The translations under genes and the position numbers were made by a program. From Acidobacteriota bacterium (GTDB taxonomy: Bacteria > Acidobacteriota > Vicinamibacteria > Vicinamibacterales > CAVVIG01), in the NCBI GenBank assembly GCA_003222395.1, contig QHWB01000038.1:62001-126000 (forward strand): a stretch of 64,000 nucleotides of DNA, read 5' to 3'. Numbering within the stretch: position 1 is the first letter of the stretch; every line of letters begins with the position of its first letter. Below, piece by piece: positions 649-53,097 of the stretch. The notes beneath the pieces were generated by a model. The model did not search any database. It was not told the DNA's origin and saw only the letters and a program-made list of their open reading frames with translations.

Positions 649-2483
649 AAGCCGCGAGCGTGCTCGTTGTCTTGCTCCTCGCACGCGTGGGAGCGCTGTA
701 TGGACATCGGCTCGACTGGTCGTGGTGGACGCCGATCGCGTATCTGTGGCACGACGCCGCGGTCGCGGCGGTGTTCGGGCTCTGCGATCGCATGCTCGTT
801 CGCCGGCCGCGGGCGATGTGGGCCATCTATGCGGTCGCCGTCGCGTACGTCGCCATCAACGTGCCGGTGACGCGCGTGCTCTCCACGCCTATGACGTGGC
901 CGATGTGGCAGGCCGCGCGCGGACCGCTCGTCGATTCGATCCGGCACTACGCGACGCTTTCCAACATCGCGTGGATGATGGCGGTCGTCGCTGCCGGTGC
1001 GGCCGCGCCGATCGTGTTCCGCGGCACGCCGGCGTCTGCGCTGATCGCATCGCTGCTGCTGATCGCCGCCGCAGGACCGATCGCATCGGCGCACGTGGCG
1101 ACGCGCGGGCTCGAGCGGAACGCGTGGACGGCGCTCGCGCTCACCGCCGCTCCGCGCGTTGCGCCCGCGCCCGTGGACCGGAACTGGCGCGCGCCGCGCG
1201 GTCAGCGCCGCGCCTCTGACGACCTCACGTGGCTGCGCGGCGCCGCGGCGGGACGACACCTCGTGCTCGTCAGCCTCGAATCGACCGCCGCGCAGTACCT
1301 CGGTATCTACGGCATGAATCCAGACGTGACGCCGAACGTCTCGGCGCTGGCGCGCGACGGCGTCGTGTTCGAGAACGCGTACGCCGTCTATCCGGAGAGC
1401 ATCAAGGGACTCTTATCGGTTCTATGCTCCACGTATCCCGCGCTCGGGACACAAGCTGAGATTTATGCCGGCGCGCCTTGCGAATCGCTGGCGTCGGCGC
1501 TGCGCGAGCATGGGTACCGCACGGCTCTGTTCCATTCGGGACGCTTCGGATACCTCGGGATGGACGCCGTCGTCGGCAACCGCGGATTCCAGGTGCTGGC
1601 CGATGCGGGCGACATCGGCGGCCGCCGCGAGTCGAGCTTCGGCGTCGACGAGGAGTCGACAGTGGCGCGGATCCTCGAATGGATCGATCGCGTGCCGCCG
1701 GACGCGCGGTTCTTCGTCACGTATCTGCCGATAGCGGGACATCACCCGTACGAGGTGCCACGCTCGGCTGAAGGGCTCCGCTTGGCTGAAGGGCTCCGCT
1801 CGGCTGAAGGGCTCCGCTCGGCTGAAAGCCTCGCGCTACAGAAATCAGGTAGCGCGAGCCTTTCGTCAGGTAGCGCGAGCCTTTCAGGCGAGCGTAGCGC
1901 GAGCCTTTCAGGCGAGCGACGTCGATTCACAACCGAATTCGATCGGTATCTGAACGCGCTGCGCTATGGCGACTCGGCGCTCGGCGCGCTGATGGCGGGC
2001 ATCCGCGATCGCGGCCTGTACGACCGAACGGCGTGGATCGTGTTCGGCGATCACGGCGAGGCCTTCGGGCAGCACGAGGGCAACTACGGTCACACATTTC
2101 AGGTGTACGAAGAGAACGTTCACGTGCCGCTCATCGTCGCCGTGCCTGGCCGCGTCGCGCGCCGGCAGCGCAGCGATCGCGTTGTCAGCTCGATCGACAT
2201 CGCGCCGACGCTCCTCGATATCGCCGGCATCGCCGCACCGAACTCGTATCAAGGCACGTCGGCCATCGACGACAACCGCCGCATGGCGACGTTCTTCGCC
2301 GACTACTCACTTCGCCTGCTCGGCCTGCGCGACGGCGCGATGAAGTACATCCGCGAGCTCGACTCGGGACGATCGCAGCTCTTCGATCTGCGCGCCGATC
2401 CCGGTGAGACGCGCAACGTCGCCGACCGCTATCCGGAGGACGTCCGCTGGTACGCGCAGAAACTGAACGAGTGGATGAAGTAA
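645..2483 (+). CDS. Membrane-anchored sulfatase-fold transferase, LtaS/phosphoglycerol transferase-like
   Basis: The 612-residue protein begins with several hydrophobic segments (roughly residues 5-160) and continues as an alkaline-phosphatase/sulfatase domain from about residue 200. The metal site appears as VSLEST, the FGDHGEAFGQHEGNYGH segment and the IAGHHPY motif. Ser252 in PESIKG lies where LtaS-type enzymes have the nucleophile Thr. Such enzymes move phosphoglycerol or phosphoethanolamine groups from lipids onto glycans or lipids at the outer face of the membrane; the exact substrate is unknown. An odd feature is a low-complexity stretch at about residues 373-425 made of SAEGLR and SGSASL units. 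It is encoded by a dispersed DNA repeat that sits in the loop between GHHPY and DRYLNALRY. The gene overlaps the desaturase fusion by ATGA. Confidence 0.8.
   Translation: MKAASVLVVLLLARVGALYGHRLDWSWWTPIAYLWHDAAVAAVFGLCDRMLVRRPRAMWAIYAVAVAYVAINVPVTRVLSTPMTWPMWQAARGPLVDSIRHYATLSNIAWMMAVVAAGAAAPIVFRGTPASALIASLLLIAAAGPIASAHVATRGLERNAWTALALTAAPRVAPAPVDRNWRAPRGQRRASDDLTWLRGAAAGRHLVLVSLESTAAQYLGIYGMNPDVTPNVSALARDGVVFENAYAVYPESIKGLLSVLCSTYPALGTQAEIYAGAPCESLASALREHGYRTALFHSGRFGYLGMDAVVGNRGFQVLADAGDIGGRRESSFGVDEESTVARILEWIDRVPPDARFFVTYLPIAGHHPYEVPRSAEGLRLAEGLRSAEGLRSAESLALQKSGSASLSSGSASLSGERSASLSGERRRFTTEFDRYLNALRYGDSALGALMAGIRDRGLYDRTAWIVFGDHGEAFGQHEGNYGHTFQVYEENVHVPLIVAVPGRVARRQRSDRVVSSIDIAPTLLDIAGIAAPNSYQGTSAIDDNRRMATFFADYSLRLLGLRDGAMKYIRELDSGRSQLFDLRADPGETRNVADRYPEDVRWYAQKLNEWMK
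1761..1918 (+). repeat. Tandem hairpin-repeat array lying in frame inside a gene
   Basis: Three 18-base units of the type CGCTCGGCTGAAGGGCTC (1761, 1779, 1797) are followed by one longer copy CGCTCGGCTGAAAGCC-TCGCGCTAC (1815-1839). After eight other bases the array continues in the opposite orientation with GTAGCGCGAGCCTTTC copies at 1848, 1869 and 1895. The same family recurs at 18456 and 51277. The array keeps the sulfatase frame open. Confidence 0.9.
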
Positions 2484-2486
2484 GGT

Positions 2487-4922
<2,436 letters not shown>

Positions 4923-17863: not shown

Positions 17864-18439
17864 ATGCCGGCGCAGTACGAAGTCACCGCGATCGGTTCCG
17901 ACGAGATCCCGCGCGCGAGCGATCCCGCCCACCAGCACCTGCTCGACGTGTACGCGAGCGAGATCAACAAGGTCGCCTCCGTCTGGCGCGGATTCGACGA
18001 CGGCGTGATCGGGTACCGGCCACATCCGAAATCGATGACGGTCGCCGACGTGTTCAGGCACGAGCTGCTGTCGGGCCGGCGCTTCTTCGGCGAGTTCCTC
18101 GGCCTGCCCGAACCCGACGCGGCTTCGCTCGTGCCCTCGCCCCTTACAGTGAACGCGTCCGTCGTGCGGCTGGCCGAGCTCGCGCGCGCACGCCTGCCGC
18201 GCCTGGCGCGCGAACCGCAGTCATGGTGGGAAGCGGCCGTGCCGTTCTTCGACGTCGAGCGCACGCGCATCTGGGTCTTCTGGAGACGAGTCCTGCACAG
18301 CGCTCATCACCGCACGCAGCTGACGGTCTATCTGCGTTTGCTCGACCGCCCGGTGCCGGCCATTTACGGGCCGACGGCCGATGTCACGTGGACCGGCGCC
18401 GATCCGACGCGCACCGTCGACGCCGCGCGGCGCCATTGA
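17864..18439 (+). CDS. DinB-family putative metal-dependent enzyme
   Basis: The 191-residue protein fits the DinB/YfiT four-helix family. One helix carries VFRHELLSGRRF, whose His would be the first metal ligand. A later helix carries HSAHHRTQ, giving the typical HxxxH pair. Family members include thiol transferases (bacillithiol- or mycothiol-type) and proteins induced by DNA damage, but the substrate is unknown for most. The start at 17864 is chosen because upstream codons are atypical and a TANNNT box sits eight bases before it. The gene follows the kinase-BRCT gene in the same direction by 80 bases, and a repeat array begins 17 bases after its stop. Confidence 0.72.
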   Translation: MPAQYEVTAIGSDEIPRASDPAHQHLLDVYASEINKVASVWRGFDDGVIGYRPHPKSMTVADVFRHELLSGRRFFGEFLGLPEPDAASLVPSPLTVNASVVRLAELARARLPRLAREPQSWWEAAVPFFDVERTRIWVFWRRVLHSAHHRTQLTVYLRLLDRPVPAIYGPTADVTWTGADPTRTVDAARRH

Positions 18440-18455: not shown

Positions 18456-18600
18456 CGCTCGGCTGAAAGCCTCGCGCTACCACGGACGTGCGGCCTCGCG
18501 GTACCACGGACGTGCGGCCTCGCGGTACCACGGACGTGCGGCCTCGCGGTACCACGGACGTGCGGCCTCGCGCTGCCACGGACGTGCGGACTCGCGCTGC
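18456..18600. repeat. Modular repeat array: one hairpin unit plus five 24-base tandem units
   Basis: One copy of CGCTCGGCTGAAAGCC-TCGCGCTAC (18456-18480) is followed by five tandem 24-base units beginning CACGGACGTGCGGCC at 18481, 18505, 18529, 18553 and 18577. Read on the minus strand, both unit types start with the same head (GTAGCGCGAGGC or GTACCGCGAGGC) and differ in their tails. There are no unique spacers. The array fills most of the gap between the DinB and YCII genes. Confidence 0.85.
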
Positions 18601-18668
18601 CAGGACCTGTCGATCGCGCGCCTGCCCGTTCGACAAGAGCCATGAAGGGTCAAACAGAGGAGAGAGAC

Positions 18669-19088
18669 ATGAGATTCATGGTCATCGTCAAAGCGAGCAA
18701 GGAATCGGAAGCGGGCGTCATGCCGGATCGAAAGCTTCTGACCGAAATGGGCAAGTACAATGAACAGCTCTCGAAGGCCGGCGTGTTCCTGGCCGGCGAG
18801 GGGCTGCACCCGACCTCGAAAGGAAAACGGGTGAAGTTCTCCGGAACGCAGAGGACGGTCATCGACGGCCCGTTCGCCGAAACGAAGGAGCTCATCGCCG
18901 GGTACTGGCTATGGCAGGCCAAGTCCATGGACGAAGCGGTCGAGTGGCTGAAGCGGGCGCCGTTCGACGGCGGGACCGAAGTCGAGATCCGGCAGGTGTT
19001 CGAGGCGGCGGATTTCGGAGACGAATTCACGCCGGAGCTGCGACGTCAGGAAGAGGCGATCCGGGCGCAGGCGGCCGCGAAGAAGTAA
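18669..19088 (+). CDS. YCII-related (DGPF) domain protein
   Basis: The 139-residue protein is a single YCII-like ferredoxin-fold domain: MRFMVIVKASKESE at the N-terminus, then VIDGPFAETKELIAGYWL, the DGPF signature of the family, and a WLKRAPF helix. In other bacteria these proteins often sit beside ECF sigma factors and may act on small molecules or in regulation, but no reaction is established. A GGAGAG site six bases upstream supports the start. It comes right after the tandem-repeat array and is followed by the cytochrome-like gene in the same direction. Confidence 0.8.
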   Translation: MRFMVIVKASKESEAGVMPDRKLLTEMGKYNEQLSKAGVFLAGEGLHPTSKGKRVKFSGTQRTVIDGPFAETKELIAGYWLWQAKSMDEAVEWLKRAPFDGGTEVEIRQVFEAADFGDEFTPELRRQEEAIRAQAAAKK

Positions 19089-44575: not shown

Positions 44576-44588
44576 CACGACCTCTTTC

Positions 44589-44705
44589 AGCTATCAGCTA
44601 TCAGCTATCAGCTTTCAGCTTTCTGCTTTCTGCTTTCTGGTTTCTGCTTTCGCTTCATCGGTGTTGGCCGAGAGCTGATAGCTGATAGCTGATAGCTGAT
44701 AGCTG
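44589..44705. repeat. Inverted pair of heptamer tandem arrays
   Basis: From 44589 the heptamer AGCTATC repeats and decays through AGCTTTC and TGCTTTC to about 44650. From 44673 the complementary heptamer (TAGCTGA units) repeats four to five times to 44705. The two arrays can pair into a long imperfect hairpin. They fill the gap between DUF1800 and DUF1501. Confidence 0.85.
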
Positions 44706-51276: not shown

Positions 51277-51497
51277 CGCTCGGCTGAAAGCCTCGCGCTA
51301 CTGGGTGAGCGATGTGACGTTGGTAGCGCGAGCCTTTCAGGCGAGCGCGGCGACCCGCGTAGCGCGCGCCTTTCAGGCGAGCGTGGCGACCCGCCGCGTA
51401 GCGCGAGCCTTTCAGGCGAGCGTGGCGACCCGCCGCGTAGCGCGAGCCTTTCAGGCGAGCGTGGCGACCCGCGTAGCGCGAGCCTTTCAGGCGAGCG
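51277..51497. repeat. Hairpin-repeat array at the 3' end of a kinase gene
   Basis: One copy in the form CGCTCGGCTGAAAGCC-TCGCGCTAC (51277-51301) faces five copies of GTAGCGCGAGCCTTTCAGG-CGAGCG at 51322, 51359, 51398, 51437 and 51473, joined by TGGCGACCCGC-type linkers. The last copy contains the TGA stop codon of the kinase read on the minus strand. The core folds as GCCT-TTC-AGGC flanked by GA/GA mismatches and a CGC/GCG stem. Confidence 0.9.
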
Positions 51498-53097
51498 TGG
51501 CGACAGCGGCTGCTTCTGTGACGGTGAGCGGCGCGGTGAGCTCGACCAGGTGCCGTTCCCACCACGTTCTGGCCGATTCGTTGTCCCAGCGCTCGCGGGG
51601 ACGGCATCGGCCCAGCCAGTCGAGCACGGCTGCCGCGTCCTGCGGACGCCGGCGCGGATCCTTCTCGAGACACGCCAGCACGAGCGCCTCGAGCTCGGAG
51701 GGAATCGGCATCTCGGTCCGCTGTGACGGCGGGACCGGGGACGCCTGCAGGTGCAGGAGGAACATGTCGGCCGGGTTGTCGGCTTCGAACACCGGCTGTC
51801 CCGTCAGCACGTAATAGGCGACGCAGCCGATCGCGTACACGTCCGCGCGCTGATCGACTTCGCCGCCGAGCACGATTTCGGGCGCCATGAACGCGGGCGT
51901 TCCCGTCGTGCGGCCCGCCTCCGTCGATCGCGGCCCGAGCGACCGACCGCCGTCGCACGTCACCAGGCCGAAGTCGAGGACCTTGACGAAGTCGTAATCG
52001 AGGCCCATCCGGCAGATATAGATGTTCGACGGCGTCACGTCGCGGTGGACGAGCCCGCGAGCATGCGCCTCGCCGAGCGAATGACACACCTGCCGCAGCA
52101 GGAACAGCGCGCGCCCCGCTGAGACCGGTCCGAACTCCCGCACCAGCGACTGCAGGTCGCGGCCGGCGAGCAGCTCCATCACGTAATAGAACGTCTGGTC
52201 GGTCGTCACGCCGAAGTCGAATACCTGGATCGTGTGCGGCGAGCTCAGAGACGCCGTCGTCTGCGCCTCTTGCTCGAAGCGGCGGAGCATGGTCCGGGCC
52301 TCGGCCTCCGTGCCCGCGCCGAGCAGTTCGGGGCGTACGAGCTTGATCGCCGCGCCGCGTGCGAGCAACCGATGCCGCGCGCGCCAGACTTCGCCCATGC
52401 CGCCGCGCCCGAGCAGCTCCACGAGCTCGTAGCTGCCCATCTCCTGCGCGCGGCGCAGCCGGCGTCCGATCCGGTGCAGGACGTGCGACGGCAGCGTTGC
52501 GACGACGGCGCACGCAAAATTGGGCATGTAGAAGACGAGCGTGGTCGCCAGCGACGCTGACGGCGCGCCGCTCAAATGCACGATCGACGACGCGAGCGGA
52601 TCCATCGACGCCGCGGCCAGCGACGCGGCCAGCATCCTGCGCGGTGTCGCAGGCAGAATCATGGCGGCCACGAGAATCACGACCGTGTTCCACGACAAGC
52701 CGCGGCCGCTGCTGACCGCTGCAAGGCCTGTCAAGGTGTTGAGCAGCGCCACCGCGGCCGCGTTCAGCACCACATACAGCAGCCCGGCGTCTGTTTTCCG
52801 CGCGTACGCGTCCGGCGCGTACCGCGCGTAGACGAACATGATCAGCGAGACGGCGATCGCGACGGTCTCGACGACCAGGACGGGCCGCGGAATGGAAACG
52901 GCGATCGTGATCGGCCGGACGATCGCATCCATCGCCAGCCCGTAGGTCCACAAGCCCGCTCCGACGGCCGCGCACACCGCGAGCCGACGGATATGTTCGG
53001 AAACGAGCGCGTCTGGAAGCCGCTGCGACTCCCCCGAATCGGAAGTGTCCGGCGGCGGTGTGTCGAGGCGCGGTGCGAGGAGCTTCGGCGTGGCCAT
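51487..53097 (-). CDS. Membrane Ser/Thr protein kinase with N-terminal transmembrane domain
   Basis: The 536-residue protein has about six membrane segments in residues 35-205 and then a Hanks-type kinase: LGRGGMGEVWRA, Lys in AAIKLV, VHRDVTPSN, LDFGLVT and GTPAFMAPE with YAIGCVAYYVLTG. All catalytic residues are present. The membrane-first order is the reverse of PknB-type kinases, and no external sensor domain is visible. Its ATG is one base after the stop of the upstream transporter, so both belong to one operon. The last residues (VATLA) and the stop come from the hairpin-repeat array, so the C-terminus may have been trimmed or replaced by the repeat. Confidence 0.85.
   Translation of the reverse strand: MATPKLLAPRLDTPPPDTSDSGESQRLPDALVSEHIRRLAVCAAVGAGLWTYGLAMDAIVRPITIAVSIPRPVLVVETVAIAVSLIMFVYARYAPDAYARKTDAGLLYVVLNAAAVALLNTLTGLAAVSSGRGLSWNTVVILVAAMILPATPRRMLAASLAAASMDPLASSIVHLSGAPSASLATTLVFYMPNFACAVVATLPSHVLHRIGRRLRRAQEMGSYELVELLGRGGMGEVWRARHRLLARGAAIKLVRPELLGAGTEAEARTMLRRFEQEAQTTASLSSPHTIQVFDFGVTTDQTFYYVMELLAGRDLQSLVREFGPVSAGRALFLLRQVCHSLGEAHARGLVHRDVTPSNIYICRMGLDYDFVKVLDFGLVTCDGGRSLGPRSTEAGRTTGTPAFMAPEIVLGGEVDQRADVYAIGCVAYYVLTGQPVFEADNPADMFLLHLQASPVPPSQRTEMPIPSELEALVLACLEKDPRRRPQDAAAVLDWLGRCRPRERWDNESARTWWERHLVELTAPLTVTEAAAVATLA

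Follow-up and report, generated by a model that had tools for sequence, protein, structure and literature searches.

A REP-anchored tandem array with half a palindrome in each unit in an Acidobacteriota genome

The closest described systems are the REPs of the GTAG superfamily, which occur with a RAYT transposase gene in arrangements termed REPtrons (Nunvar 2010, Di Nocera 2013, Corneloup 2021). As far as the available portions of these papers describe them, REPtrons share with the elements reported here the GTAG tag, an imperfect hairpin in which each side has two conserved mismatches, a copy number in the hundreds and a single RAYT located among the REPs. The present REPs differ in having their own stem and loop sequence, in occurring as two mirror types and in the tag, which is GGAG in several relatives. 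We describe a locus in the genome of an Acidobacteriota bacterium where half of such a REP has become part of a tandem repeat. The window is a stretch of 64,000 nucleotides of contig QHWB01000038.1, and the feature, at 18456–18602, is a short minisatellite with a REP as its anchor.

Structure of the array and origin of its second tail

Read on the minus strand, 18456–18602 consists of five 24-nt units followed by a single intact 25-nt REP. The REP (18480 to 18456, minus strand) is an exact copy of the type A consensus GTAGCGCGAGGCTTTCAGCCGAGCG, with a GTAG tag and an imperfect hairpin in which positions 5–7 pair with 23–25 below a GA/GA internal loop and positions 10–13 pair with 17–20 below a 3-nt loop. 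The predicted DNA fold, ....(((..((((...))))..))), has an energy of −5.7 kcal/mol, a stability that 16 of 200 shuffles also reach (z −1.37). The half-REP tandem array (18469–18602, minus strand) has a period of 24 and 5.6 copies over this span (TRF gives 5.3 copies with 96% matches), and it stops at REP position 12, the top of the 5′ arm. The repeat unit contains 12 of the 25 nt of the REP, which is complete only once, at the array end nearest to a DinB-like gene. Each unit is made of a 12-nt head and the 12-mer CGCACGTCCGTG. The truncated heads on the minus strand are GTACCGCGAGGC (three copies, 18493–18504, 18517–18528 and 18541–18552), GCAGCGCGAGGC (18565–18576) and GCAGCGCGAGTC (18589–18600). 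The 12-mer that follows them adjoins the REP in its first copy (18481–18492) and recurs at 18505–18516, 18529–18540, 18553–18564 and 18577–18588. It is the same in all five units; constant repeats with differing spacers, as in a CRISPR, were not found. GTAG is present only in the hairpin unit, the array heads having GTAC (n = 3) or GCAG (n = 2). Counted outward from the REP, the five heads show 1, 1, 1, 1 and 2 mismatches to the REP head, the most divergent being the one farthest away. No other REP lies within 250 nt of the array, and a further decayed unit beyond 18602 was not significant (125 of 1000 shuffles were as good).

The original prediction described the hairpin unit and the 24-base units as one repeat family with a common head and two alternative tails, one of them tandemly amplified. 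The heads do diverge as described, the hairpin unit (head GTAGCGCGAGGC, 18469–18480, minus strand) continuing into the hairpin tail TTTCAGCCGAGCG and the other five into the 12-mer, and the period-24 array bears out the amplification. The membership of both kinds of unit in one family also stands: the head GTASCGCGAGGC has 190 exact copies in the 7,741,373-base genome compared to 10 for the reversed pattern. The prediction had named two observations that together would make the family link a coincidence, namely a head at chance frequency and tails that never meet in other arrays. The frequency of the head greatly exceeds chance, and the link is therefore no coincidence; the two tails indeed share no other array, as one of them is confined to this locus. 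What fails is the idea of alternative family modules. CGCACGTCCGTG occurs exactly five times in the 7.74-Mb genome, all five in the window array (reversed pattern, one). Among 194 exact heads in 2.0 Mb, 165 had REP tails (at most 4 of 13 mismatches), and the remaining 29 heads, at 17 loci, carried other tails with no 8-mer tail start common to two loci; a few of these 17 loci are not arrays but REPs altered by an insertion or deletion, or isolated heads that arose by chance.

Since the array precedes the hairpin unit (minus strand, 5′ to 3′), each 12-mer also lies directly upstream of the next head, and this order settles how the second tail is interpreted. With the 12-mer unique and the other tails locus-specific, the family has one tail, to which local DNA caught in tandem duplications is added. 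The second tail is local DNA that adjoins the REP on its GTAG side and was amplified along with the palindrome's 5′ half. A second repeat family made of the same head and CGCACGTCCGTG, surviving at one locus, would agree with the initial description of this single site. It is highly improbable and was rejected, as the genome holds no other copy and other loci carry different tails.

The REP is extragenic at this locus, lying between a stop codon at 18439 and a start codon at 18669. The upstream DinB-like gene (17864–18439, plus strand), whose stop codon is 16 nt before the REP, has weak Pfam matches below the curated cut-off (PF12867, E 1.1e-4, 23.1 bits against 24.8), and its start codon is our choice. 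The downstream gene (18669–19088, plus strand) encodes a YCII-related domain protein (PF03795, E 1.5e-19). Among eight relatives of the DinB-like protein, six carry the label Acidobacteria or a group within it and two that of Gemmatimonadales, a weak taxonomic hint. The search for close relatives yielded no second genome of the genus. Both flanking genes occur together at none of 28 relative loci other than the window's own, and a search of the relative loci for an orthologous empty site did not find one. ORFs cross the array on both strands, but the array sits between two Pfam-matched genes and a coding repeat was rejected. As the periods of other arrays include 19, 20, 22 and 23, the divisibility of 24 by three is no sign of coding. 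An RNA element (no Rfam match at the gathering score), a promoter or terminator (no sigma-70-like promoter or terminator-like site by simple consensus search) and a folded array (shuffles fold at least as well, z +1.71) were likewise rejected; overall, these checks gave no indication of a protein-coding or RNA role of the array.

The array could have been kept as a binding site, a transcript end or a regulatory structure, given its place between two genes of the same direction and 16 nt past the first stop codon. Binding of gyrase or IHF by other REP arrays is stated in the accessible part of PMC2817692. We consider such a selected element improbable in view of the missing promoter, terminator and Rfam signals, the poor fold of the array, and the periods and sequences that vary from locus to locus.

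The REP family and its RAYT gene

In the window, 45 head-like sites were found at up to two mismatches (shuffle mean 23.7), a number reached in none of 100 shuffles. Near-complete REPs occur at 477 places in the genome at up to two mismatches; the reversed-pattern control gave 0. There are two mirror types, A (GTAGCGCGAGGCTTTCAGCCGAGCG) and B (GTAGCGCGAGCCTTTCAGGCGAGCG), with arms GAGGC...GCCGAG and GAGCC...GGCGAG, respectively. Both are predicted to fold alike, with GTAG unpaired, a 3-bp stem, the GA/GA internal loop, a 4-bp stem and a 3-nt loop (−5.7 kcal/mol; z −1.37 for A and −1.77 for B). In a first sample of 64 type A copies, the tag is conserved at G1 in 62, T2 in 62, A3 in 51 and G4 in 63. 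The family thus shows the GTAG at one end, the adjoining stem-loop and the high copy number of the GTAG REP superfamily.

At up to two mismatches, the REPs are present in 10 of the 100 genomes searched, the own genome included (477 copies). The others are G041 (216), G010 (70), G024 (67), G016 (17), G040 (6), G005 (5), G017 (2), and G002 and G006 (1 each). In G010, most REPs among the matches listed start with GGAG and not GTAG; it is possible that tag and transposase changed together in this genome.

One Y1_Tnp gene was found by searching the genome, and a search with the protein itself also gives one match. The 163-residue RAYT protein matches Pfam Y1_Tnp with E 9.7e-11, and its sole match among solved structures is TnpA-REP (4er8, E 1.5e-5). 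The alignment sets HLH against HMH and Tyr125 against chain position 115. In the TnpA-REP study (PMC8266576, consulted in part), Y115 was mutated as the catalytic residue. REPs of both types lie on both sides of the gene, matching the flanked Y1/HUH gene that characterises a REPtron; the original prediction had suggested looking for a RAYT-type gene. The nearest relative of the protein (60% identical, in G041) is likewise flanked by these REPs. These two are the only ones of 30 RAYT-like loci checked that have REPs beside them; the other 28 have none nearby. In G010, a RAYT fragment (50% identity, 60 residues; C448, 41115–41394) adjoins one REP. Upstream of the RAYT gene of the own genome (locus L036, 858–1400, on C106), there is a long array of mixed type A and type B units separated by TGGATATCACCG, and the mixing of arm types suggests exchange between copies.

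Recurrence, end points and growth of half-REP arrays

Tandem arrays with periods of 14–100 were surveyed with a single array finder in 2,377,454 bases (31%) of the own genome. The survey gave 173 arrays, of which 42 touch one of 278 REPs. When the REP positions were shifted circularly in 1000 trials, the mean was 1.5 and the largest value 8. Some of the surveyed stretches had been picked for their hits, so five whole contigs serve as the fair sample; here, 31 of 145 arrays touch a REP (1.1 expected, largest 7). In an earlier 2.0-Mb sample, some stretches of which had also been chosen, 39 of 152 arrays touched a REP (shifted control 1.6). The 42 REP-touching arrays comprise 14 with whole REPs, 21 that run into a REP from its GTAG side and end there, and 7 that do so from the tail side. 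Four of the 21 end inside a REP at both ends, between two inward-facing REPs. Strict half-REP arrays, without a whole REP inside, number 20 beside the 278 REPs, 11 of them one-sided on the GTAG side, 4 ending in REPs at both ends and 5 on the tail side. The local DNA differs from array to array; examples are the 18-nt unit GCGGTGTAGCGCGAGGCT, the 20-nt unit GCCGATTGGTAGCGCGAGCC and units of 21 nt in which two REP heads enclose TACATCTGCGAACC. In the relative G041, which has the same REP, four of five REP-touching arrays are half-REP arrays (31 fetched loci, some overlapping).

The window contains further examples. A type A REP (1815–1839, minus strand) has an array on its tail side (1761–1826, period 18) whose unit is the 3′ half of the REP plus 6 nt. 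A type B cluster (1849–1918, plus strand) faces it and includes a half-REP array (1845–1885, period 21) and a whole-REP array (1870–1918, period 24), giving two inward-facing REPs, each with arrays, at 1761–1918. The cluster at 51290–51504 is a whole-REP array; a minus-strand type A head is followed by five tandem type B REPs at 36–39-nt spacing, inverted with respect to type A. Two other repeats of the window were noted. At 44584–44705, two heptamer arrays face each other, about 10 CTTTCAG/CTATCAG-like units being followed by 4.7 copies of AGCTGAT, which is nearly their reverse complement, and a long hairpin is possible. The 294-nt tandem repeat at 2508–3895 (4.8 copies) probably represents repeated protein domains.

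The end points of the arrays within the REP are not uniform. The 25 GTAG-side ends concentrate at REP positions 7, 9, 12–13 and 18 (P 0.0005 against uniformity), and the 15 strict ones, counted once per array, give P 0.02, although part of this clustering comes from chance base matches at the junctions and, between inverted heads, from their common GCGC. Steps of the predicted hairpin fall at positions 7, 9 and 13 but not at position 18. In 18 arrays with at least two units, the head of the far unit matches the REP head worse in 11, that of the near unit in none and the two equally in 7. This is as expected if the youngest units adjoin the REP, but the choice of reference favours the result; the REP serves as the reference and also forms the near edge, and adjacent copies tend to resemble each other in arrays of any kind, which weakens the evidence.

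The excess of ends inside REPs, the clustering of these ends and the divergence of the far units fit slippage or template switching at the hairpin. We regard it as probable that REP hairpins seed tandem duplication in this way, with the end point inside the palindrome. At the window locus, the starting state would have been a GTAG-tagged REP of the large RAYT-associated family, 16 nt after the DinB-like gene. In a first tandem duplication, REP position 12, where the 5′ arm reaches its top, would have become joined to a site 24 nt farther upstream, giving a unit of half a REP and 12 nt of local DNA. More rounds would have led to five units, with one complete REP remaining at the edge. We infer that the REP forms its hairpin on single-stranded DNA during replication or repair and that the polymerase slips or switches template there; REPs would then act as nucleation points of tandem duplication. 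Against seeding by the hairpin stands its modest stability in the window. The window array has no second REP nearby, whereas 6 of the 10 other one-sided strict arrays sit between two inward-facing REPs, and hairpins of REP pairs may therefore outweigh single hairpins.

The transposase itself might make the arrays, by cutting the single-stranded REP in or beside the hairpin and joining the end to upstream DNA to give tandem units. Aligned with E. coli TnpA-REP, the RAYT shows the HxH motif and has a tyrosine in the place of residue 115, and its gene is flanked by the same REPs. According to the consulted part of PMC8266576, the E. coli enzyme cuts at C|T and can join strands. The window REP is broken precisely at C12|T13, and the GTAG side is preferred (15 versus 5 strict arrays, P 0.04; 21 versus 7 overall, P 0.013). 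A C|T cut would, however, be expected to leave T across the junction, which holds for 3 of the 11 strict one-sided arrays, the junction here being C|CGCACG; C|T cutting was rejected as a general cause. In addition, arrays end at many REP positions. E. coli K-12 possesses both REPs and RAYT, and half-REP arrays are absent in 450 kb of its genome. Production of the arrays by RAYT is unlikely.

The order of events could also be the reverse, REPs having inserted into or beside pre-existing arrays, with the common head marking a preferred target. In the array at approximately 94390–94474 of contig C34, far units have TTCGCGA and AGCGCGA in place of GTAGCGCGA and look as if the local DNA had resembled the head beforehand. 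Yet in most arrays, the units match 7–12 nt of the REP exactly to the break point, REPs would need to pick head-like arrays in more than 12 unrelated sequences, and the conservation of the head extends past the part able to serve as target. Insertion is quite improbable, and seeding by REP hairpins remains our preferred explanation.

The birth of short tandem repeats in bacteria is seldom visible. As many differing arrays share the edge of one 25-nt palindrome, the break point can be mapped on a known hairpin, making the process testable. The results also call for caution, in that REP heads with odd tails are not necessarily new REP classes. A wider proposal, which we consider doubtful, is that RAYT or nucleases acting on hairpins break REPs inside the palindrome and turn any adjoining DNA into tandem arrays, such that a domesticated transposase system generates locus-specific intergenic repeats of variable length throughout the lineage. 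If true, REPs would be a standing source of minisatellites.

Comparison with known REP arrays

For comparison, nine 50-kb stretches of E. coli K-12 (450 kb, about a tenth of the genome) were analysed, with REPs identified by a simple pattern. They contain 97 REPs, and four of seven arrays touch REPs. The periods of these four are 92, 100, 113 and 123 nt, the units are whole REP pairs, and no half-REP array was found beside the 97 REPs. The difference between 20 of 278 here and 0 of 97 in K-12 has a Fisher P of 0.003, and with whole contigs only (16 of 222 versus 0 of 97) P is 0.004; both values treat REPs as independent, which is untrue within one array. Tandem growth of REP-containing DNA is common to the window array and the BIME-2 arrays of E. 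coli. The four REP arrays in the 450 kb of K-12 repeat whole REP pairs with periods of 92–123 nt, whereas the window array has a 24-nt unit with only half a REP and lacks the one or two whole REPs per unit that define BIME-2 and tandem REPINs. In the tandem REPIN clusters of Pseudomonas fluorescens SBW25, as presented in the consulted part of PMC3116915, flanking DNA is repeated with the element, as here. The SBW25 unit consists of flank, whole REPIN and flank; in our array, each unit holds a cut palindrome, and the one complete copy stands at the edge. Among published statements in the portions of the literature consulted, the closest to the half-REP design concerns the repetition of singletons or dimers, not of half elements. 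REPs and RAYT are already known; set against those portions, half-REP arrays look like an undescribed variant of tandem growth at these elements.
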